A stretch of 45,843 bases of DNA from NCBI RefSeq assembly GCF_900111485.1, contig NZ_FOIC01000021.1:1-45843 (forward strand). Direction: 5' to 3'. The position numbers and the translations under genes were made by a program. Below are positions 6,281-45,658 of this stretch, piece by piece. Source of the stretch: Natrinema hispanicum (GTDB lineage Archaea; Halobacteriota; Halobacteria; Halobacteriales; Natrialbaceae). The notes below the pieces were generated by a model, which had not been told where the DNA came from, searched no databases, and saw nothing but the letters and a program-made list of their open reading frames with translations. The number at the start of each line of letters is the position of its first letter. Positions within the stretch are counted from its first letter, which is position 1.

Positions 6281-6462
6281 CGATCGGCAATACGGGTGTA
6301 CTACCTCCTAATCCGTCGCTACGTCCGGGTACGACGCTGATACTTAACCCGCGCGGAAGCGACGCAGCCACCATCGTGGCCGGTCAGTCCGCTCGCTGTG
6401 CCGTTTGCCTCCCGTGTCCGAGAGCAGTGCCGATGGCGAGCGGTGGCACCACGTGTGTCTCA

Positions 6463-6570
6463 TCCTACCGGACAAACGTCAGTGACTACTCGATCGCGTC
6501 TCGACGGCTGTCGCCGTCGGCGACAGCGTCTCGAGTGCGATCGACGTCTGAACCGTTTTGTCCGGCAGTA
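6463..6570 (+). mobile_element. MITE-like element B1 (108 bp)
   Basis: The ends carry CCGGACAA (6468-6475) and TTGTCCGG (6558-6565) as inverted repeats. The element is flanked on both sides by TCA (6460-6462 and 6571-6573), a 3-bp target duplication. The interior matches the reverse complement of the element at 16319-16507 once the nested insertion there is removed: GTCAGTGACTACTCGA, CGACGGCTG and CGTCTCGAGT are shared. It has no coding capacity. It ends 20 nt before the likely start of the next gene. Confidence 0.85.
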
Positions 6571-6590
6571 TCAGTCGGGGTGGTCGGCGC

Positions 6591-16033: not shown

Positions 16034-16318
16034 ATGAGCGCAACTGAATCGGATTCCGACGAGGTCGTCGATGCCGACGACCCACACGGCGAGTGTGACG
16101 GGGCGACGATCGACGCCGACCTACCGCCGAGCGCGAAACTGATCTACAAGGTCCTCGAGTACGAGGCCCCACTGACACAGGAGGAACTTGCCGCCGAATC
16201 GCGGCTCTGTCCCCGAACCGTCCGATACGCACTGGGGAGACTCGAGGAACAGGGTGTCGTGACAAGTCGCGCCTGTCTCGCGGATGCCCGACAGTCGAAG
16301 TATCGGATCGACGACTGA
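16034..16318 (+). CDS. Small winged-helix DNA-binding protein
   Basis: The 94-aa protein has an acidic leader (about 1-28), then a winged-helix fold: LPPSAKLIYKVLEYEAPLTQEELAAESRL, recognition helix CPRTVRYALGRLEEQG, and the wing VVTSRACLADARQSKYRID. It resembles MarR/TrmB-type HTH proteins without an effector domain, as is common for small haloarchaeal regulators. The start is ATG 16034. The TGA stop at 16316-16318 doubles as the left target-site duplication of MITE B2, so everything immediately after the gene is inserted DNA. Its target is unknown. Confidence 0.85.
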   Translation: MSATESDSDEVVDADDPHGECDGATIDADLPPSAKLIYKVLEYEAPLTQEELAAESRLCPRTVRYALGRLEEQGVVTSRACLADARQSKYRIDD

Positions 16319-16507
16319 TACTGCCGGACAACACGATTCATACGGTCTGCTGTCCCGATGTTCCGGCCCGCACGCAGTGCGAGTCGCGGCCGGCCGGCAC
16401 TGACTGACAGGCGTCCGTCTCAGCCATCGATCGGACTCGAGACGTTGTCGCCGAGGCAACAGCCGTCGGGACGCAGTCGAGTAGTCACTGACGGTTGTCC
16501 GGTCGTA
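16319..16507 (-). mobile_element. MITE-like element B2 (189 bp), with a nested element
   Basis: It is flanked by TGA on both sides (16316-16318 and 16508-16510). Its ends TACTGCCGGACAA and TTGTCCGGTCGTA form imperfect inverted repeats. It is the reverse complement of B1 (6463-6570), except for 82 bp that match element A plus a 3-bp duplication. Removing those leaves 107 bp against 108 bp in B1. It abuts the stop codon of the HTH gene. Confidence 0.85.
16341..16419 (+). mobile_element. MITE-like element A3 (79 bp), nested in B2
   Basis: TACGGTCTGCTGT at the left end is identical to A1, and the right end GACTGACAGGCGTCCGTC is a diverged A-type end. TCA flanks both sides (16338-16340 and 16420-16422). 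B1 has a single TCA at the matching position, which shows that A3 inserted into B2 and duplicated 3 bp. Confidence 0.8.
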
Positions 16508-16554
16508 TGAACTGTCGGTTAGCACTCGACGATCGAACGGCTGCAGTGCGTGCG

Positions 16555-17565
16555 CTACCGGTGTTTCTGATACTGATCGACCAGCAGATCGATCCCGAAC
16601 GCGCCTGACGTGATCTCGTAGTGGGTCTCGAGCCGCGGGTTGAACTTCGCCTTGTATCGGTTGATGCTCGGGACGCCAGCGCCGACGAGGTCGTACTCTT
16701 CGATTCCCGCGTGGAGGCCATCGCGCATGACGTGCCAGTCGAGTAAGTCGTTGATCGCGATGTCGACGTCAGCGTCCGGTTTGACCCCGCCTTGCCATCG
16801 ATACCGCGTCCGATCCGATTCGACGACGAGAATGCCACCGAGGAACTCACCGTCGACGCGACAGATGTAGGGTCTGATCGCACCGTCGGGGAGCTGTTCG
16901 TGGACCGCTCTCGCGAAGTCGACGCTCAACCGGAACGGCTGGCCTTGGCTCTCGTAGCGCTGACGGACCTTCTCGACGATGCGTTCGACGTCGTCGGTGT
17001 CGCCCTCCTCGATGGTGTAGCTGTCTTCGTCGGCGTTTCGGATGTTGCTTCGCGCGTCGCTGCTGAACCGATTGAGCAGTTCCTCTTCGGAACCATCGAG
17101 GTCAACGACGTACGTGTGACTTGGCTTGACGTCGTAGTCGTTCCAGACGAACGGACGGACGTCGTCGAGCGTGCCGGTGACGAACTTGCTATACAGCGGC
17201 GAGAGTTCGGTGTCGATCCACTCGAGACAGCCCTCGATGAACCGTTTGATCCGGCGGTCGGCCTTGCGCTGTTTGAGCTTGTCGACGTTTAGCAGGGCTG
17301 GGCCGAGATACGTCGTCCATGAGTGGGGAGCCGGAGAGAACGCGCCGGTTACCGGTCCCTTGGTATATTCGAAGACGGGAAAGATCCCGACTGTTTCCTG
17401 ACCTTTGAACCCTGCAAGCAGGTGTAGTATCGTATCGGTATCGACGGCCTGCAACCGGAGCGCTTCCGCCCGAAAGAACGGGTTCGAGTCGTCCGAGCGT
17501 TCGACGTACCGATTCCACTCCTCGGCATCGGCGTGTGGGTTGAGGGTGCGTATCTCGACGCTCAT
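16555..17565 (-). CDS. FemAB-like GNAT-superfamily acyltransferase, copy 1
   Basis: The 336-aa protein belongs to the FemAB-related / BioF2-like GNAT family (PF13480): tandem GNAT-like folds, with the central signature SSDARSNIRNADEDSY and the late motif VGAGVPSINRYKAKFNPRL. Relatives transfer amino-acyl or acyl groups in cell-envelope building, and some occur in exopolysaccharide loci. It has no signal or membrane segment, so it is cytoplasmic. ATG 17565 overlaps the stop of the upstream phosphodiesterase gene by 4 nt (ATGA), so the two are translationally coupled. A paralogue lies at 36243-37253, with the same family of phosphodiesterase next to it. Donor and acceptor are unknown. Confidence 0.85.
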   Translation of the reverse strand: MSVEIRTLNPHADAEEWNRYVERSDDSNPFFRAEALRLQAVDTDTILHLLAGFKGQETVGIFPVFEYTKGPVTGAFSPAPHSWTTYLGPALLNVDKLKQRKADRRIKRFIEGCLEWIDTELSPLYSKFVTGTLDDVRPFVWNDYDVKPSHTYVVDLDGSEEELLNRFSSDARSNIRNADEDSYTIEEGDTDDVERIVEKVRQRYESQGQPFRLSVDFARAVHEQLPDGAIRPYICRVDGEFLGGILVVESDRTRYRWQGGVKPDADVDIAINDLLDWHVMRDGLHAGIEEYDLVGAGVPSINRYKAKFNPRLETHYEITSGAFGIDLLVDQYQKHR

Positions 17566-36242: not shown

Positions 36243-37253
36243 TCACTTGACGCTATCGTACAGCGATGCGATCGTTTGCATTCCCCACGTACCGTGTTCG
36301 AGGCTGTAGTATGTCCGCAGTTCGGGGTTGAACTTCGCTTTGTACCGGTTGATCCGGCGCGTATCCGCGCCGATGAGATCGTACGTCTCGAGGCCACGCG
36401 CGCGTCCGTCTTGCATGACTGCCCAGTCGAGGAGGTCGTTCGTCGGGAGGTCGACATCGGCGTCGGTCCGGACGCCACCCATCCACCGGCCCGTGGTGTC
36501 GCCGTACTCGAGGGCCACGATGCCACCGACGAACTCACCGTCGACACGGAGCGTGTACGGTCGGACGTGGCCGTTTGGCGACCGCTCGGCGAGATCGAGA
36601 ATGAACTCGACCGGTACGTCGAAGCCGATCCCCTGTGATTCGTAGCGATTCTGGACCTGCTTGTGGATCAGACGGAGCTCCTTGGAGCCGCCGACTGCAA
36701 TCTCGTAGGCATCGTCGTCGGTGTTGCGAATGTTGCTCCGTGCGTCGCTGCTAAAGCTCATCAACAGGTCGTCTTCCTCTCTCGCGAGGTTGACCACGTA
36801 GGTATACTCCGGTGTCACGTCGTACGCCTGCCACTTGAACGGACGTGCGTCTTCGAAGGCTGTCGCGGTGCGAACGTGGCTGTACTTCGGATTCAATTCG
36901 GTCTCGATCCACTCGAAGCAGCCGTCGATGAATCGCTGTCGCCGCCGTTCGCGCTTTCGCTGTTTCAGCTTCCCCATGTTTAGAAACGCCGGCCCGAGAT
37001 ACGGCACGCGGAGATGCGGCGGCGGCGAAAACGCCGTCGTCACGAACTGCTTTTTGATCTCGAAGACGGGGAAGAGCCCGACCGGTTCCTGTCCCTTGAA
37101 TCCGATCAGCGGATGCAACGTCGCACCGGCGTGGTCGGCCTGGACCTGTAGCGCCTCGAGTTCGTGACAGAGCGTTCCCTGTGGCGATCGCTCGACGTAT
37201 CCGTTCCACTTCTCGAGGTCGTCGTCGGTCGCGACGCGGACATCGATGCTCAT
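36243..37253 (-). CDS. FemAB-like GNAT-superfamily acyltransferase, copy 2
   Basis: The 336-aa protein has the same length as copy 1 at 16555-17565 and shares SSDARSNIRNxDxDxY, RxxRFIDGCFEWIETEL, GFKGQEPVGLFPVFE and the late IGADTRRINRYKAKFNPEL. It has the same FemAB/BioF2-like tandem GNAT fold, cytoplasmic. The internal similarity, combined with the reversed order relative to the phosphodiesterase, shows a duplicated module that has since been rearranged. Donor and acceptor are unknown; envelope glycan or lipid-linked intermediates are the likely acceptors. Confidence 0.85.
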   Translation of the reverse strand: MSIDVRVATDDDLEKWNGYVERSPQGTLCHELEALQVQADHAGATLHPLIGFKGQEPVGLFPVFEIKKQFVTTAFSPPPHLRVPYLGPAFLNMGKLKQRKRERRRQRFIDGCFEWIETELNPKYSHVRTATAFEDARPFKWQAYDVTPEYTYVVNLAREEDDLLMSFSSDARSNIRNTDDDAYEIAVGGSKELRLIHKQVQNRYESQGIGFDVPVEFILDLAERSPNGHVRPYTLRVDGEFVGGIVALEYGDTTGRWMGGVRTDADVDLPTNDLLDWAVMQDGRARGLETYDLIGADTRRINRYKAKFNPELRTYYSLEHGTWGMQTIASLYDSVK

Positions 37254-37389
37254 GGCTGCGGTCCCCCGCTGTCGGTCGGCCGTCTCGATTCGCTCGTCAC
37301 GGTCCAGTCCATAGGGATCGCCTCGCGTCAGAGCTACTTTGTAAGCAGCCTGTTTCCTGACTCACCACGAGACAGGTGTGATCGTCTCA

Positions 37390-37469
37390 TACGGTCTGCT
37401 GTACCGATTTACCGGTGCAACCGCAGGACGGGTCGCGGTTGCACCAGAAATGACTTACAGCAGACCGTA
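37390..37469 (+). mobile_element. MITE-like element A1 (80 bp)
   Basis: The inverted ends are TACGGTCTGCTGTA and TACAGCAGACCGTA, flanked by TCA at 37387-37389 and 37470-37472. The interior holds a second inverted repeat, GGTGCAACCGC with GCGGTTGCACC. The element lies between the FemAB-like gene and the membrane hydrolase gene, and nothing else is seen in that 316-bp gap. Confidence 0.88.
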
Positions 37470-37569
37470 TCAGTATTCGGGAGACCGGTCGGTGTCGGCA
37501 GCACGCGTTACGGTGGTCCTACCTGCGGCGATTGCCTTCTGCCCATTCCGCGTTGTTGCCACCATCCCC

Positions 37570-38154
37570 TCAACTCAGCCGCTCGTAGAGCAGCCGGTTC
37601 CAGCGAACAACGAGCCGACAGCCCGGCCAGCCGTCGACGATCCAGAGCCCAACCGCTGTGAGGGCAATACCGACTTGGACGAGTAGATACGGTGTCGGCT
37701 CGAGCGCAAGCACCTCTGCGAGATATGGGCCGAAGTTGTGACGGAATCCCTCGAGCAGGCCGCCGTGATCGCGACCCTCGATGATGACGACTGGCCAGAG
37801 GAGGTGGGAGATCGTCCACTCGCCGCTCGAGATGTAGCTGGGGATCACATCACCCACGAGGTGAAGCGGATACCCAATGGCGAACGCGAGTCCGAGCGCG
37901 GGTCGACCGTATTCTCGAGCGACCAGTCCCGCAATGGTCACGAGCGGGACAGTGATGAATATCGAGTGAGCGAGCGCGTAGCCGGAGTGAAACACGTCGA
38001 ACTGCCAGGCCAGCGTTTTGTCGACCACGTCCGGCAGAACGGATGCGATTAGGACGACCGCCGCTTCGTACTCGCCGGGCGCGTCCCGGTAGTGAGCGTG
38101 ACAGACCGCCGAGTAGACGAGGTACCCGAAGAGTGCGTGTTCCCACGGCCACAT
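37570..38154 (-). CDS. YdjM/DUF457-type membrane-bound metal-dependent hydrolase
   Basis: The 194-aa polytopic protein opens MWPWEHALFGYLVYS and has SVLPDVVDKTLAW, GYALAHSIF and GYPLHLVGDVIP. The conserved His/Asp set (H6, the D in LPD, the H in LAHS, the H and D in HLVGD) is the signature of the YdjM-like (PF04307) inner-membrane hydrolases. The physiological substrate is unknown. It is divergent from the DUF1616 gene. An A/T-rich CATTATCAATATCG (38175-38190 region, minus strand) stands about 25-35 nt before the ATG as its TATA region. It may act in lipid or glycan turnover, but this is only context. Confidence 0.82.
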   Translation of the reverse strand: MWPWEHALFGYLVYSAVCHAHYRDAPGEYEAAVVLIASVLPDVVDKTLAWQFDVFHSGYALAHSIFITVPLVTIAGLVAREYGRPALGLAFAIGYPLHLVGDVIPSYISSGEWTISHLLWPVVIIEGRDHGGLLEGFRHNFGPYLAEVLALEPTPYLLVQVGIALTAVGLWIVDGWPGCRLVVRWNRLLYERLS

Positions 38155-38272
38155 AGCTGGTTGGACGCCGCTGTCGATATTGATAATGGCGCTGATACGC
38201 GATCGCGCGGGATCGTTATCTTACAAGTAACAATGGCTAGGGGATGCGAGCGACTGATAACTGCCAAGTACA

Positions 38273-39550
38273 ATGAAAGGCCTCCCGTTTCAGCCTGTCT
38301 CGACCCTGCGTCGGCGAAGCAAGCGCCTCGCTACGGTGATACCGACTGATCTGATCGGTGTCGCTGGCTTCACTGTCGTCGCGACTGTGGTCTTGGTCGT
38401 TGCGAACGTGTCATCACCGGTGGTGCGAGCAGCAGTCGGATTTCCGTTCTTGTTTCTCGTGCCGGGCTACGTGACCGTTGCAACGCTCTTCCCGCGAGCG
38501 ACCCCCGTTCAGGAGCCCCAAGCCGGTCGTCGTCGGTTCATTCAGCAAACGCAGGCGTTGACCGACATCGAGCGTGGGGCGCTTTCGTTCGGACTGAGTT
38601 TCGCGGTCTTACCGCTTCTCGGGCTAGTCATTGCGGCAACGCCGTGGGGGTTCACCGGTCCGGTCGTCGGTAGTGCAGTGGCCTGTTTTTCGATTGTCGG
38701 TACGAGTCTCGCTACTGCCCGCCGACTGTCCGTTCCGCCAGTCGATCGCTACCGGGTGAGATTCGGTCGGCGGCTCGAGGCCGCTCACACAGCGGTCTTC
38801 GGCGCGAAATCGACACTGCAGGTTGCTATCAACGTCGTACTCGTCCTCAGCATGGTGCTTGCGGTGACGACAGTCGGCTATGCGCTCGTCTCTCCACAGG
38901 AGGGCGAGCAATATACGAGCCTTCGACTGCTCACCGAAAACGAGTCTGGAGAACTCGTCGCGTCGGGGTACCCGCCGGAAATCGAACCGAACGAGTCGGT
39001 CCCGTTCGTCGTCGGTGTCGAGAACCAGGAGCAACGAGAAATGACCTATACTGTCGTCGTGCAGGAACAGCGATTCGTGGACGGCGAGCTGGTCGAACGG
39101 ACGGAGCTACAGCGGACTGACATGCAGGTCAATCAGGGGACGACCGACTACGTCGATCAAACCGTCACGCCAACGACCGAGGAGGGGACCGTTCGAATTG
39201 CTGTCCTGCTGTATCCTGACGGGACACCGGAGACACCGACATTCGAGAACGCCTATCGGAACGCATACTTCTGGACGACTGTAGCTGAGACAGACAGTAC
39301 TGTGCCCGAAGGCGGTAGCAGTGAGGACGAAACCGATTCTACAGACAATGAGACCGAATCCAGTGACACGGACGATGGGATCGGCGATCCATTCGACGGC
39401 ATATTTGACGACGATGTGGCTGCCGAAACCGAAAGCGAAGCCGGACCGGCTGATGAGGCTGCCGAAGACGAACCGGACGACGAGATCGATGACGCCGAGG
39501 CCGAAGGTGAACCGGCTGACGGAGCCGATGACGTACCGATAGACGACTGA
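38273..39550 (+). CDS. DUF1616 family membrane protein with acidic tail
   Basis: The 425-aa protein has five hydrophobic helices in its first 210 residues (LIGVAGFTVVATVVLVVANV; AAVGFPFLFLVPGYVTVATLF; FGLSFAVLPLLGLVIAATPW; VVGSAVACFSIVGTSLATA; INVVLVLSMVLAVTTVGYALV). The external DUF1616 domain follows (about 215-345, FVVGVENQEQREMTYTVVV, an Ig-like beta pattern), and then an 80-residue Asp/Glu-rich tail. DUF1616 proteins are common in archaeal surface-glycan loci; their function is undefined. The start is ATG 38273, with a weak AGTAACAATGG 38-39 nt upstream that resembles the CATAACAA element. Confidence 0.85.
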   Translation: MKGLPFQPVSTLRRRSKRLATVIPTDLIGVAGFTVVATVVLVVANVSSPVVRAAVGFPFLFLVPGYVTVATLFPRATPVQEPQAGRRRFIQQTQALTDIERGALSFGLSFAVLPLLGLVIAATPWGFTGPVVGSAVACFSIVGTSLATARRLSVPPVDRYRVRFGRRLEAAHTAVFGAKSTLQVAINVVLVLSMVLAVTTVGYALVSPQEGEQYTSLRLLTENESGELVASGYPPEIEPNESVPFVVGVENQEQREMTYTVVVQEQRFVDGELVERTELQRTDMQVNQGTTDYVDQTVTPTTEEGTVRIAVLLYPDGTPETPTFENAYRNAYFWTTVAETDSTVPEGGSSEDETDSTDNETESSDTDDGIGDPFDGIFDDDVAAETESEAGPADEAAEDEPDDEIDDAEAEGEPADGADDVPIDD

Positions 39551-39762
39551 TATCGCGTCTCGAGATCGCGCCGCAAGTAATTCGGCCTGATCGGTGTGAT
39601 ACATCGGCGGAGGTGGTGACACCATCGACACTGCGGCTGCGACCGAGACGCGGTCGACGGCAACGAATCCGTCCGCGCCACTGGTATCGCTGACTCCGGT
39701 CGCTTCTCCGCTGGTCCTCGCTCGAGCGCACCGAAATCCGGTCAGTGCCGGATAATCTCCTC

Positions 39763-39770
39763 CATAACAA
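39763..39770 (+). promoter_or_regulatory. CATAACAA promoter element, first PGF-CTERM-like gene
   Basis: CCATAACAATAGC is read towards the gene and ends 60 nt before ATG 39831, so a leader of about 35 nt would be expected. Confidence 0.5.
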
Positions 39771-39830
39771 TAGCTTGCTTCCTGACTGACTCGAGTAGCA
39801 GACACTTCGATAGAGAACACAACCAATATC

Positions 39831-40898
39831 ATGAGAATAAGTAACAGAATTCCCGCACGCAGTACGTGCGTGCTCGTTATCACGAACGTTGTGATCGTGT
39901 TTGGAACGATAATTGGGGCTGGCATCGTCACTGCCCAATCGGTGCCCTCACAATCTGACGGTCAGTATGCAGTCGTTCAGGGGGACGAGTGTGTCACTAT
40001 CGATCCGCTTGGCAACGGCTCACAATCCGTTGAGGCGTTTTACGACTATCGAACGCCGAATACCGCGCCTCGTTCGTACAACTACAGCTCGTACGGCACG
40101 ACACATCTTCAGGAAGACGATACGAGTTCGCTGTTCCTGTACGAGGGACGTGATGGCATCAGTCTCGTTTTGCTTCACGACCAGCACGCTGGCGATACCG
40201 CCGGTGGTGCGGTGACGATGGAGTTCACTGGGCTGCCCGACGCCGGCGAGTGGGTCATTGAGGACGATGGCTATGAGGGACGTGATGACGAATTCATGCA
40301 CGATCGCACCTCGAGTCGCATCACGTGGGTGTATACCGATGGGCGGAACGACGGAGCTGTCTTCCGCGGTGGCCTCGATGACGACGTCGAACTCACGATC
40401 GATCCCGCGTTTAACGACGCAGCCGATTTCCGGCTGTACGAGGGCACGATTACCGACTGGCAGGTGCTGTCGGCGACCGAGAACGGCTACGAACGGACCT
40501 CGCTTGACATGACCGAACCGATCGAGATCCGATCCGACGGCTGTCCCTCGGTTTCGGTCACCGAACTAGAGATCGACGACAGGGTGACGACTGGTGAGTC
40601 CGTTGCTATCACGGCGACCGTCGAGAACGCCGGCCAGCGAACGGCGACAACGGCAGTTCCGATCACCGTCGACGGCGAAATCGTCGACGAACGGGATGTG
40701 ACACTCGAGCCTGGCGAGACCACGACCCTGTCAACGACGACGACGTTCGACGATACGGGGACGTACACCGTCGCGGCAGGTGACCGAACCATGACGATGT
40801 CCGTCACTGGAAGCGGCGACGAGATGGTTGGATTCGGCGTTGTTGCCGTCTCGCTGGCAGCGCTGGCCGGTGTCCTGCTCATCCGCTATCGCCAGTAA
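39831..40898 (+). CDS. Secreted surface protein, CARDB-like, PGF-CTERM-like anchor (copy 1)
   Basis: The 355-aa protein has an N-terminal signal or anchor (VLVITNVVIVFGTIIGAGIVTAQ, cleavage near residue 36). A domain of about 190 residues is shared with its neighbour (VTIDPLGNGSQSVEAFYDYRTPNT, THLQEDDTSSLFLYEGRDG). An Ig/CARDB-like domain follows, about 240-325 (ITATVENAGQRTATTAVPI, ERDVTLEPGETTTLSTTTTF), and then a C-terminal sorting tail MVGFGVVAVSLAALAGVLLIRYRQ. The tail has the PGF-CTERM layout (PGF-like motif, hydrophobic helix, basic end) but reads VGF in place of PGF, so processing by archaeosortase A is less certain here. Confidence 0.83.
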   Translation: MRISNRIPARSTCVLVITNVVIVFGTIIGAGIVTAQSVPSQSDGQYAVVQGDECVTIDPLGNGSQSVEAFYDYRTPNTAPRSYNYSSYGTTHLQEDDTSSLFLYEGRDGISLVLLHDQHAGDTAGGAVTMEFTGLPDAGEWVIEDDGYEGRDDEFMHDRTSSRITWVYTDGRNDGAVFRGGLDDDVELTIDPAFNDAADFRLYEGTITDWQVLSATENGYERTSLDMTEPIEIRSDGCPSVSVTELEIDDRVTTGESVAITATVENAGQRTATTAVPITVDGEIVDERDVTLEPGETTTLSTTTTFDDTGTYTVAAGDRTMTMSVTGSGDEMVGFGVVAVSLAALAGVLLIRYRQ

Positions 40899-41068
40899 GT
40901 CAACGCCACCTCGATCGCGACATTGTTCGAGCCGTGATCTTCTTCGCTCCTTTCAACTCGTGATTCGCTCGAGACGGAGGCTCACGGCAAGTGGCGACCG
41001 CATGTCCACGTTTGAGCGTCGAAGCGATTCGCTCTGCCCACCAGTATCGAAACCGAAAACGGCACTGA

Positions 41069-41148
41069 TACTGACTACTGTCTGTCATTTCCGGTGCAAC
41101 CGCAACCCGTCCTGCGGTTGCGCCGGTAAATCGTTACAGCAGACCGTA
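41069..41148 (-). mobile_element. MITE-like element A2 (80 bp)
   Basis: It is the reverse complement of A1 with scattered changes. The right end is TACAGCAGACCGTA, and the left end has decayed to TACTGACTACTGT. It is flanked by TGA at 41066-41068 and 41149-41151. It lies in the 388-bp gap between the two paralogous surface-protein genes. Confidence 0.87.
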
Positions 41149-41242
41149 TGAGAAATAGTGAATTAAAACACGTTTGCGGACCGCTCGCTGCCTTCATCGT
41201 CCACATCTCGTGACTATCGCTTCACTCCCTGAGAAATGATGA

Positions 41243-41286: not shown

Positions 41287-42363
41287 ATGTCACAACGATC
41301 CAGTAGCATGAACCCTGCAACGTACTCGTCGCTCACGATGTTTGCAGTCGTGGCCTCTCTCGTCGTCAGTTCGACGTTCGGCGTGGCTGCAGTGGCCGGC
41401 ACGGCCACAGCACAGTCCGGACCAGACACGTATACAATCTCTCAGGGAGACCAGTGTACGACCATCGAACCGCTCGGCAACGGGCACCTGACCGTCGAGG
41501 AGTTCTACGACTACCGGACCCCGAATACGTCTCCGAGTTCGCACTCCTACAGCTCTCACGGAACGACTCATCTCCAAGAAGACGATACGAGTTCGCTCTT
41601 CTTGTATGAAGGCGGTGACGGTCTCAGTCTCGTGGTGCTCCACGATCGGAATCGCGGTGACTCCGGCGGTGGCGCAGCGACGATGACGTTTACCAACTTG
41701 CCAAAAGAAGGCGAGTGGGTCGTCGAGGACGATAACTACGATGGAGCCGACGACGAGTTCGATCACCGCGACACCTCGAGTCGCATCACGTGGCTCTGGT
41801 CTGAGGGCCGAAGTGACGGCGCTGCGTTCAACGGCGGCATGGACGACGACTTCTTGATCGAGATCAGCCCACGGTTCAACAGCGACGCCGCTACCGTACA
41901 GTCGACCGACGGCCGGATCAGTGAGTGGGACGCAGTCTCTGCGACCCAGACCGGCACCGAACGAATCTCGCTCGATATGGACAAACCGGTCGTGATCCAG
42001 TCCGGGAGTTGTAGCTCGCATACCGTGACCGAACTGACCATGGACGAGACGGTGTCGCCGGGCGAGTCTGCGACCATCGAGGCCACGGTCAAAAACGACG
42101 GCGGCGTCACCAAGAACGTTACCGTGCCGTTTACCGTCGATGGTGAGACCGTTGACGAACAAGAAGTGTCCCTCGACCCTGGCGAGACCGTGACGCTGTC
42201 GACGACGACCACGTTCGACGAAGCGGGCACATATACGATCGGAGCAGCAGACCAAACAAAGGATGTAACCGTCGGTAATGGTGATGGATTGCCCGGCTTC
42301 GGTGTGACTGCCGTGGCAGTGGCCGCGCTTCTCGGAACGCTCGTGGTCTATCGTCGCCTGTAG
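41287..42363 (+). CDS. Secreted surface protein, CARDB-like, with PGF-CTERM anchor (copy 2)
   Basis: The 358-aa protein has a Sec-type signal (SSLTMFAVVASLVVSSTFGVAAVAGTATA). It then has the same domain as copy 1 (CTTIEPLGNGHLTVEEFYDYRTPNT, THLQEDDTSSLFLYEGGDG) and a CARDB/Ig-like domain (about 240-325, PFTVDGETVDEQEVSLDPGET). The C-terminal tail is PGFGVTAVAVAALLGTLVVYRRL, a complete PGF-CTERM signal. Such proteins are cut and lipid-anchored by archaeosortase A and are often glycosylated. The translation start may be ATG 41287 or ATG 41308. The tandem pair arose by duplication, with MITE A2 now between them. Its function at the surface is unknown. Confidence 0.88.
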   Translation: MSQRSSSMNPATYSSLTMFAVVASLVVSSTFGVAAVAGTATAQSGPDTYTISQGDQCTTIEPLGNGHLTVEEFYDYRTPNTSPSSHSYSSHGTTHLQEDDTSSLFLYEGGDGLSLVVLHDRNRGDSGGGAATMTFTNLPKEGEWVVEDDNYDGADDEFDHRDTSSRITWLWSEGRSDGAAFNGGMDDDFLIEISPRFNSDAATVQSTDGRISEWDAVSATQTGTERISLDMDKPVVIQSGSCSSHTVTELTMDETVSPGESATIEATVKNDGGVTKNVTVPFTVDGETVDEQEVSLDPGETVTLSTTTTFDEAGTYTIGAADQTKDVTVGNGDGLPGFGVTAVAVAALLGTLVVYRRL

Positions 42364-45417: not shown

Positions 45418-45504
45418 CTTCGATAATGACAACAAGAGGTTCTTTGCCAACTCTATTATTTAGTATAATATCTGTGGTGTATTTAACACCGAGTGTTATA
45501 CGCT
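45418..45504. other. A/T-rich spacer before the right tnpB element
   Basis: The spacer includes TATTATTTAGTATAATATC (about 45455-45473) and GTGTATTTAACACC. GTTATACGCT directly precedes the element's left end, comparable to GTTATAGGT before the left-hand element. No gene is seen. Confidence 0.5.
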
Positions 45505-45558
45505 GAACAGGCGCAATACCACGGCCTTTAGGCCGTGGATACGCGCCGTCACTCAGTG
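45505..45558 (+). mobile_element. Left end of the tnpB element at 45659 (palindromic)
   Basis: This is the inverted copy of 266-319 (53 of 54 identical). The stem CCACGGCC/GGCCGTGG has loop TTTA and outer GGCGC/GCGCC. It sits 100 nt before the tnpB start. Confidence 0.85.
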
Positions 45559-45658
45559 TCACGCCCCACCGTCTCCGACAGGACTGGATATTCCACGGTT
45601 CTCAATCCAATCTTTTACAATTGAAGCAAGTATAAGCGATTATACAGCCGTTCCACGA

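Follow-up and report, generated by a model that had tools for sequence, protein, structure and literature searches.

Two families of short mobile elements, here called A and B, were recognized in a 45,843-nucleotide stretch of the haloarchaeon Natrinema hispanicum (contig NZ_FOIC01000021.1; G000:C42, 61% G+C), referred to below as the window, and of the examined insertions of these families that lie outside genes, about half coincide exactly with a TGA or TAA stop codon. Both families are short and non-coding, with 13-bp terminal inverted repeats, a target-site duplication and many dispersed copies, as is characteristic of miniature inverted-repeat transposable elements (MITEs); both families are large and best represented in the genus of the window and in related Natrialbaceae. 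We consider it likely, with good confidence, that A and B are non-autonomous hairpins which insert at TNA (N being any base) with a 3-bp duplication, often on stop codons, and which depend on a transposase acting in trans. The stop-codon placement of the non-genic insertions is new here; no account of the A or B elements, or of archaeal insertion centred on stop codons, was found in the full-text literature, whose coverage was partial (without subscription papers, supplements or ISfinder), so that an earlier account is possible.

The window carries three A and two B elements, each of the five bordered by identical triplets (Table 1). All five had been described in an earlier note on this DNA and all do exist, though the span it gave, 37387-41151, encloses A2 and A3 only. 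Ten matches to the 14-bp A end (up to 3 mismatches) lie in the window where 2.1 are expected, a number reached in none of 100 shuffles, and A2 and A3, oppositely oriented, are 90% alike over a span of 90 nt. The ends in general begin with T, mostly TAC, as the note had said, the exceptions in the window being TCC at one B1 end and GAC at one A1 end.

Target sites and stop codons

For family A the flanking triplets were counted in 800 kb of G005 and G021 together with the window, anchored on the terminal motifs only; 61 of 67 matches were complete, and 51 of the 61 had identical triplets on either side (26 TCA, 25 TGA). For family B, in contigs taken from a scan for B ends, 107 of 143 matches passed a completeness filter, all at distinct places, and 88 of these have identical flanks (40 TGA, 32 TCA, 10 TTA and 6 TAA). 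The outcome that the note had named as refuting its proposal, with most copies differing in their ends or duplications, did not occur. (An earlier list of 90 candidates, 66 of them concordant, contained non-elements, and the motif-anchored counts have been used instead.) Since B also duplicates TAA and TTA, the target site is TNA and not only the fixed TCA/TGA that had been proposed; the 3-bp duplication common to the two families stands.

Read relative to the orientation of the element, the B triplets are mixed (39 TCA, 33 TGA, 9 TTA, 7 TAA), and among 12 pairs of B copies with no more than 3 differences the triplets differ in 9. Near-identical copies therefore carry different triplets, in both orientations, which argues that the triplet derives from the target. 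It would instead be part of the element if a Y1 (IS200/IS605) transposase moved A and B as single-strand elements of a REP-like or PATE-like kind, or a site-specific recombinase moved them as cassettes, as their strong hairpins, their extragenic location and the IS605-type tnpB gene at 389-1639 of the window might suggest; the mixed orientations, the differences within near-identical B pairs, the agreement of left and right triplets in 88 of the 107 B copies and the occurrence of empty sites with a single triplet make this very improbable.

One such empty site lies in the window itself, where on the B strand TGA-A1-TGA in B2 corresponds to a single TGA in B1. Another was found at an A copy (C68:39141) placed directly after the TGA stop of a gene for a predicted membrane protein, which looks like a permease. 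In the closest relatives at that place, G007 and G008, the same gene end has one TGA and no element. The gene end could be aligned by script in 19 of the 28 other genomes of the genus (9 remained unaligned); all 19 end in TGA, and 16 have no element after it. In the other three (G001, G004 and G013), TACGG and 40-odd further bases come after the TGA, with no clear right end, perhaps a decayed copy or a different element at the same stop codon. At these loci (L345, L343 and L344 for G013, G004 and G001) a short, G+C-rich, palindrome-like stretch is seen after the stop; the three genomes have no match to the A end pattern. The gene pair around B2 is also found without the element, on plasmids of Haloterrigena sp. 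KLK7 and H. alkaliphila, where, as in the window, an acetyltransferase gene comes next after the winged-helix gene, at distances of 27 and 46 bp, and where the annotated winged-helix homologues end at the place matching the window gene. The homologue in Natronorubrum daqingense has a TAA stop and a different neighbour.

TNA reads TGA or TAA on one strand, so that an insertion on a stop codon keeps the stop: the duplicated triplet would restore it at the gene end and leave the protein unchanged. Placement was assessed with a simple, home-made codon-usage gene caller, applied after the elements had been cut out of the sequence. Of the 75 insertions in the first set (from G005, G021 and the window, excluding copies with unequal triplets and those near stretch ends), none is genic and 35 are on stop codons. 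These comprise 27 of the 53 non-genic A insertions and 8 of the 22 B insertions, the latter being 5 of 18 at TGA/TCA and 3 of 4 at TAA/TTA; by comparison, stops make up 376 of the 5605 non-genic TGA/TCA sites (6.7%). Per thousand sites there are 72 A insertions at stops, 8.7 in the 60 nt downstream of stops and 2.6 in the 60 nt upstream of starts. In the second set, family B in the contigs from the B end scan, stops account for 36 of the 75 non-genic insertions (28 of 60 at TGA/TCA and 8 of 15 at TAA/TTA, with 6.8% and 6.3% expected), and 2 of the 77 classified insertions are genic. That makes 2 genic insertions among 152 in both sets together, while 65-69% of TGA/TCA sites over the two sets are genic (69% in the first). 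Selection against genic insertions probably contributes to this placement; insertions inside genes would be lost by it. Since open frames run long in this DNA, these gene-call counts, with their context controls, replace an initial count of open frames, in which 39 of 66 concordant copies ended a frame of at least 100 codons, compared with 11% for control TGAs.

Insertions on and off stop codons prefer the context GAC-TGA-G, which is common at these gene ends. This raises the question of whether the stop bias is a by-product, with no special targeting, left when a transposase that likes this context inserts widely and its genic insertions are selectively lost so that mostly gene ends remain. 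The non-stop insertions do have the same context preference, and genic insertions are nearly absent. Against this, a context profile built from the 26 non-stop A insertions predicts 22% on stops where 51% are seen (P 4e-6), and TGA sites 1-60 nt downstream of stops, which should be about equally harmless, are used 8 times less per site. On such evidence we find the by-product explanation about as easy to accept as to doubt. It has been partly shown that some of the bias comes from the preferred context and some from something more, which may be further target choice or selection against other sites.

Several observations weigh against the joint reading given at the outset and should be set beside it. 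With a context profile built on all 53 A insertions, 36% would be expected on stops; when GACTGA sites only are considered, 33% of those outside genes are stops, which is then the expectation (P 0.0045), and on these sites the excess of stops over sites 1-60 nt downstream is not significant (P 0.10), which is as the by-product explanation would have it. The gene caller misses genes (73% coding), the stretches and contigs were selected for holding elements, and the stop excess of the second set is measured against plain background, without a context control. Flanks are unequal in 10 of the 61 complete A copies and 19 of the 107 B copies. In the window, one element of the five is on a stop codon (B2) and one is nested in a B element (A1), the remaining three (B1, A2 and A3) being intergenic and off predicted stops. 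Finally, the P values for the ends shared by A and B, given below, are modest, and no transposase or full-length element for either family was found in the searches made.

An element that duplicates TNA can occupy any TGA or TAA stop without changing a protein, which gives it a simple way to multiply where genes are densely packed. With natural insertions numbering well over a hundred, and empty sites to set beside them, it becomes possible to test how transposons settle in harmless sites, whether mobile hairpins become archaeal 3' untranslated regions, and what enzyme moves them.

Shared ends and the search for a transposase

At about 80 and 108 bp the elements leave no room for a transposase, and both families are non-autonomous, as the earlier note had held. 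Judging from the ends and the duplication, a DDE-type transposase would act on them in trans, by cut-and-paste at TNA with a 3-bp stagger, and one transposase type would move both. TAC.G.C is common to the consensus of A (49 copies) and that of B (94 copies) at both ends, and the families have a further motif in common and in register, CAGTCAGT at positions 14-21 of one end and ACGAT at positions 15-19 of the other. By letter shuffling the shared ends have P values of 0.018 and 0.047, with 0.79 and 0.13 for the crossed pairs; as B was oriented by its CAGTCA motif, the value of 0.018 leans favourable. These end motifs are suggestive of a common transposase. A shortened, 78-bp B and a 75-bp A also lie back to back in C26 (L053:1207-1368) as TCA-B-TCA-A-TCA. 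The shared ends, the TNA site and this tandem together favour one transposase type, so that A and B are probably moved by the same kind of enzyme, as had been proposed, short of proof.

The search for that enzyme was confined to three Pfam families, DDE_Tnp_1, DDE_Tnp_4 and DDE_Tnp_1_2. In G008, G097 and a Natronolimnohabitans genome there were 43 matches to DDE_Tnp_1, of which 30 loci were fetched; neither these nor 26 loci of the window's own genome, many of them cut by contig ends, have A- or B-like ends (0 of 56). The same scan does reveal insertion sequences with 8- and 10-bp repeats, and at L106 and L529 a TNA/TAC pair that is weak (5 of 14 mismatches) and unlike A or B. DDE_Tnp_4 gave no match in 10 genomes, 5 many-copy genomes included, and DDE_Tnp_1_2 none in the 29 genomes of the genus. 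No A end pair turned up in the 400 kb covered on one G005 replicon, where a long ungapped list of matches was mostly chance and has not been used. In other fetched stretches there are end pairs spaced as in an insertion sequence, and a subset was inspected. Those at L356, L379 and L403 were judged by eye to be independent small elements with host genes between them, or a chance match, and five of seven pairs checked by script have a short partner (75-108 bp, up to 3 mismatches) at both ends. The other two, at L464 (1095 bp) and L487 (1961 bp), have one end without such a partner; no obvious transposase is seen in their printed open frames, for which no profile search was made. The genome search for the ends that the earlier note had called for has thus yielded dispersed copies, which could be counted, and no insertion sequence carrying them in the searches made.

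A close match in target choice is the IS1031 subgroup of the IS5 family, bacterial elements with a TNA target and an exclusive 3-bp repeat, which include an 857-bp example (PMC12016507). A member or relative of that group, carried on an insertion sequence that is rare in these genomes or lost from them, could be the source of the transposase, and the range of 0 to 140 end matches within the genus looks as if activity needed an element that is rarely held. The IS1031-type elements described there are autonomous, however, with ends that begin GAACC and not TAC (PMC12016507), and no such element was found beside A or B; given also the absence of DDE_Tnp_1_2 and DDE_Tnp_4 matches and the 56 DDE_Tnp_1 loci without A- or B-like ends, we regard this source as plausible but somewhat doubtful.

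Among other known systems, the MITEs and small mobile repeats (SMRs) of Haloquadratum walsbyi are likewise haloarchaeal and are about 80-110 bp long with prominent inverted ends and tens of copies, the SMRs being without a known transposase (PMC3119063). A and B are similar in size, inverted ends and copy number. They differ in that TNA is duplicated and gene ends are favoured, while for the SMRs the same source gives no target duplication and states a preference for PATEs and IS605-type elements (PMC3119063). From IS200/IS605-type elements in general, whether PATE or REP-like, A and B are set apart by their target duplication and by flanks that are not fixed to the orientation of the element. 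Bacterial REP elements are high-copy extragenic palindromes, from which A and B are distinguished by their inverted ends and target-derived duplication. Tourist-type MITEs of the PIF/Harbinger superfamily are eukaryotic, short inverted-repeat elements with a 3-bp duplication of the TWA type; A and B are like them in their inverted repeats and the length of the duplication, but TGA and TCA dominate here, and the Harbinger-type domain DDE_Tnp_4 is unmatched in the 10 genomes.

Hairpin structure, copy number and host range

The A stem was analyzed in all 32 oriented own-genome copies of exactly 80 bp (of 49 at 79-80 bp). Standard pairing is seen in 88% of cells over its 26 named pairs; in the central stem 91% of cells are paired and two-sided changes are found in 5 of 13 pairs. 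The covariation score of 0.198 lies above all 500 shuffles (mean 0.126) and all slid versions (0.071 or less), and there are 47 cells with two-sided changes compared to 24 in shuffles, a test that is inflated by the relatedness of the copies. The number of pairs with two-sided changes, 8, is no excess over the shuffles (mean 7.4; reached in 220 of 500). Folded as RNA, A2, A3 and B1 do far better than their shuffles (z -7.45, -6.71 and -5.58), and A1 does not (z -1.30). The compensation in the central stem points to maintenance of the hairpin structure, which may operate through RNA, in 3'-end processing or termination, or by arm-to-arm copying of DNA. This compensated stem and the stop-codon placement both go beyond the earlier note. 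They invite the bolder proposal, which we think unlikely, that an undescribed haloarchaeal transposase picks stop codons as safe harbours (TNA centred on TGA or TAA in a gene-end context) and that the structurally conserved hairpins of 80-108 nt, with which it would have equipped many genes immediately behind the stop, are mobile 3'-end modules, serving as terminators or as RNA-stability or processing signals.

In its own genome an 86-bp A query gave 48 rows, corresponding to at least 40 distinct places once 8 places present on both strands were removed; this is a lower bound, as scoring covered 40 of the 100 first-look candidates and the count misses A1 itself. Family B has 11 nearly full-length places there (at least 100 of 116 bases), along with fragments. 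A 16-base A end pattern is present in 21 of the 29 genomes of the genus, with 0 to 140 matches each and 0 or 1 for the reversed-pattern control; the 8 without a match are G001, G004, G006, G012, G013, G016, G018 and G019. In an order-wide sample it was found in 7 of 79 genomes, including G097 of another family with 24 matches. The B end pattern has 34, 70, 71 and 21 matches in G000, G008, G021 and G024, with none for the backward control, and the scan of genome contigs for B ends gave at least 119 stretches. Natronolimnohabitans sp. A-GB9 accounts for 49 of the 80 matches listed, and B-type elements are strongly expanded in that genome (L408-L526); the commonest B-type lengths in that contig set are 75, 78 and 106-108 bp. 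In genome G087, a 191-bp A-type element (L407:3975-4165) encloses another inverted-repeat insert of about 110 bp. Matches of a 14-base end to viral contigs were spread across many contigs, were taken as chance and have not been used.

Elements of the window and their neighbours

Table 1. Positions of the A and B elements in the window and of the gene whose stop codon adjoins B2
Feature	Position	Strand	Target triplets and remarks
B1, 108-bp B element	6463..6570	+	TCA duplicated at 6460-6462 and 6571-6573; no predicted stop codon there
94-aa winged-helix (MarR-like) gene	16034..16318	+	Pfam HTH_24, E 7.4e-7; left target triplet of B2 formed by its TGA stop at 16316-16318
B2, B element, 189 bp including A1	16319..16507	-	TGA duplicated at 16316-16318 and 16508-16510
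A1, 79-bp A element inside B2	16341..16419	+	TCA duplicated at 16338-16340 and 16420-16422
A2, 80-bp A element, intergenic	37390..37469	+	TCA duplicated at 37387-37389 and 37470-37472
A3, 80-bp A element, intergenic	41069..41148	-	Triplet (TGA on +) duplicated at 41066-41068 and 41149-41151

The position of these elements between surface-cluster genes had been taken to indicate repeated rearrangement there. This is not borne out, as copies occur genome-wide, those in the window look like single insertions with intact duplications, and the gene order at B2 is that of the relatives without the element. Two genes with CARDB domains (39831-40898 and 41287-42363), 73% alike over 300 nt, border A3 on either side. 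The window also has two GNAT/FemAB-like acetyltransferase genes of 336 aa each, at 36243-37253 and 16555-17565.

Near the window's two ends, at 227-330 and 45494-45597, lie 104-nt stretches that are 88% alike in opposite orientation, with a small palindrome in each. The first is upstream of the IS605-type tnpB gene (389-1639; Pfam OrfB_IS605, Cas12f1-like), and the second is upstream of another open frame at the window end that is tnpB-like by eye. The sole match to an RNA family in the window is Rfam sot0042, a sense overlapping transcript, at 1521-1692 over the 3' end of tnpB (91.4 bits, with a cut-off of 88).

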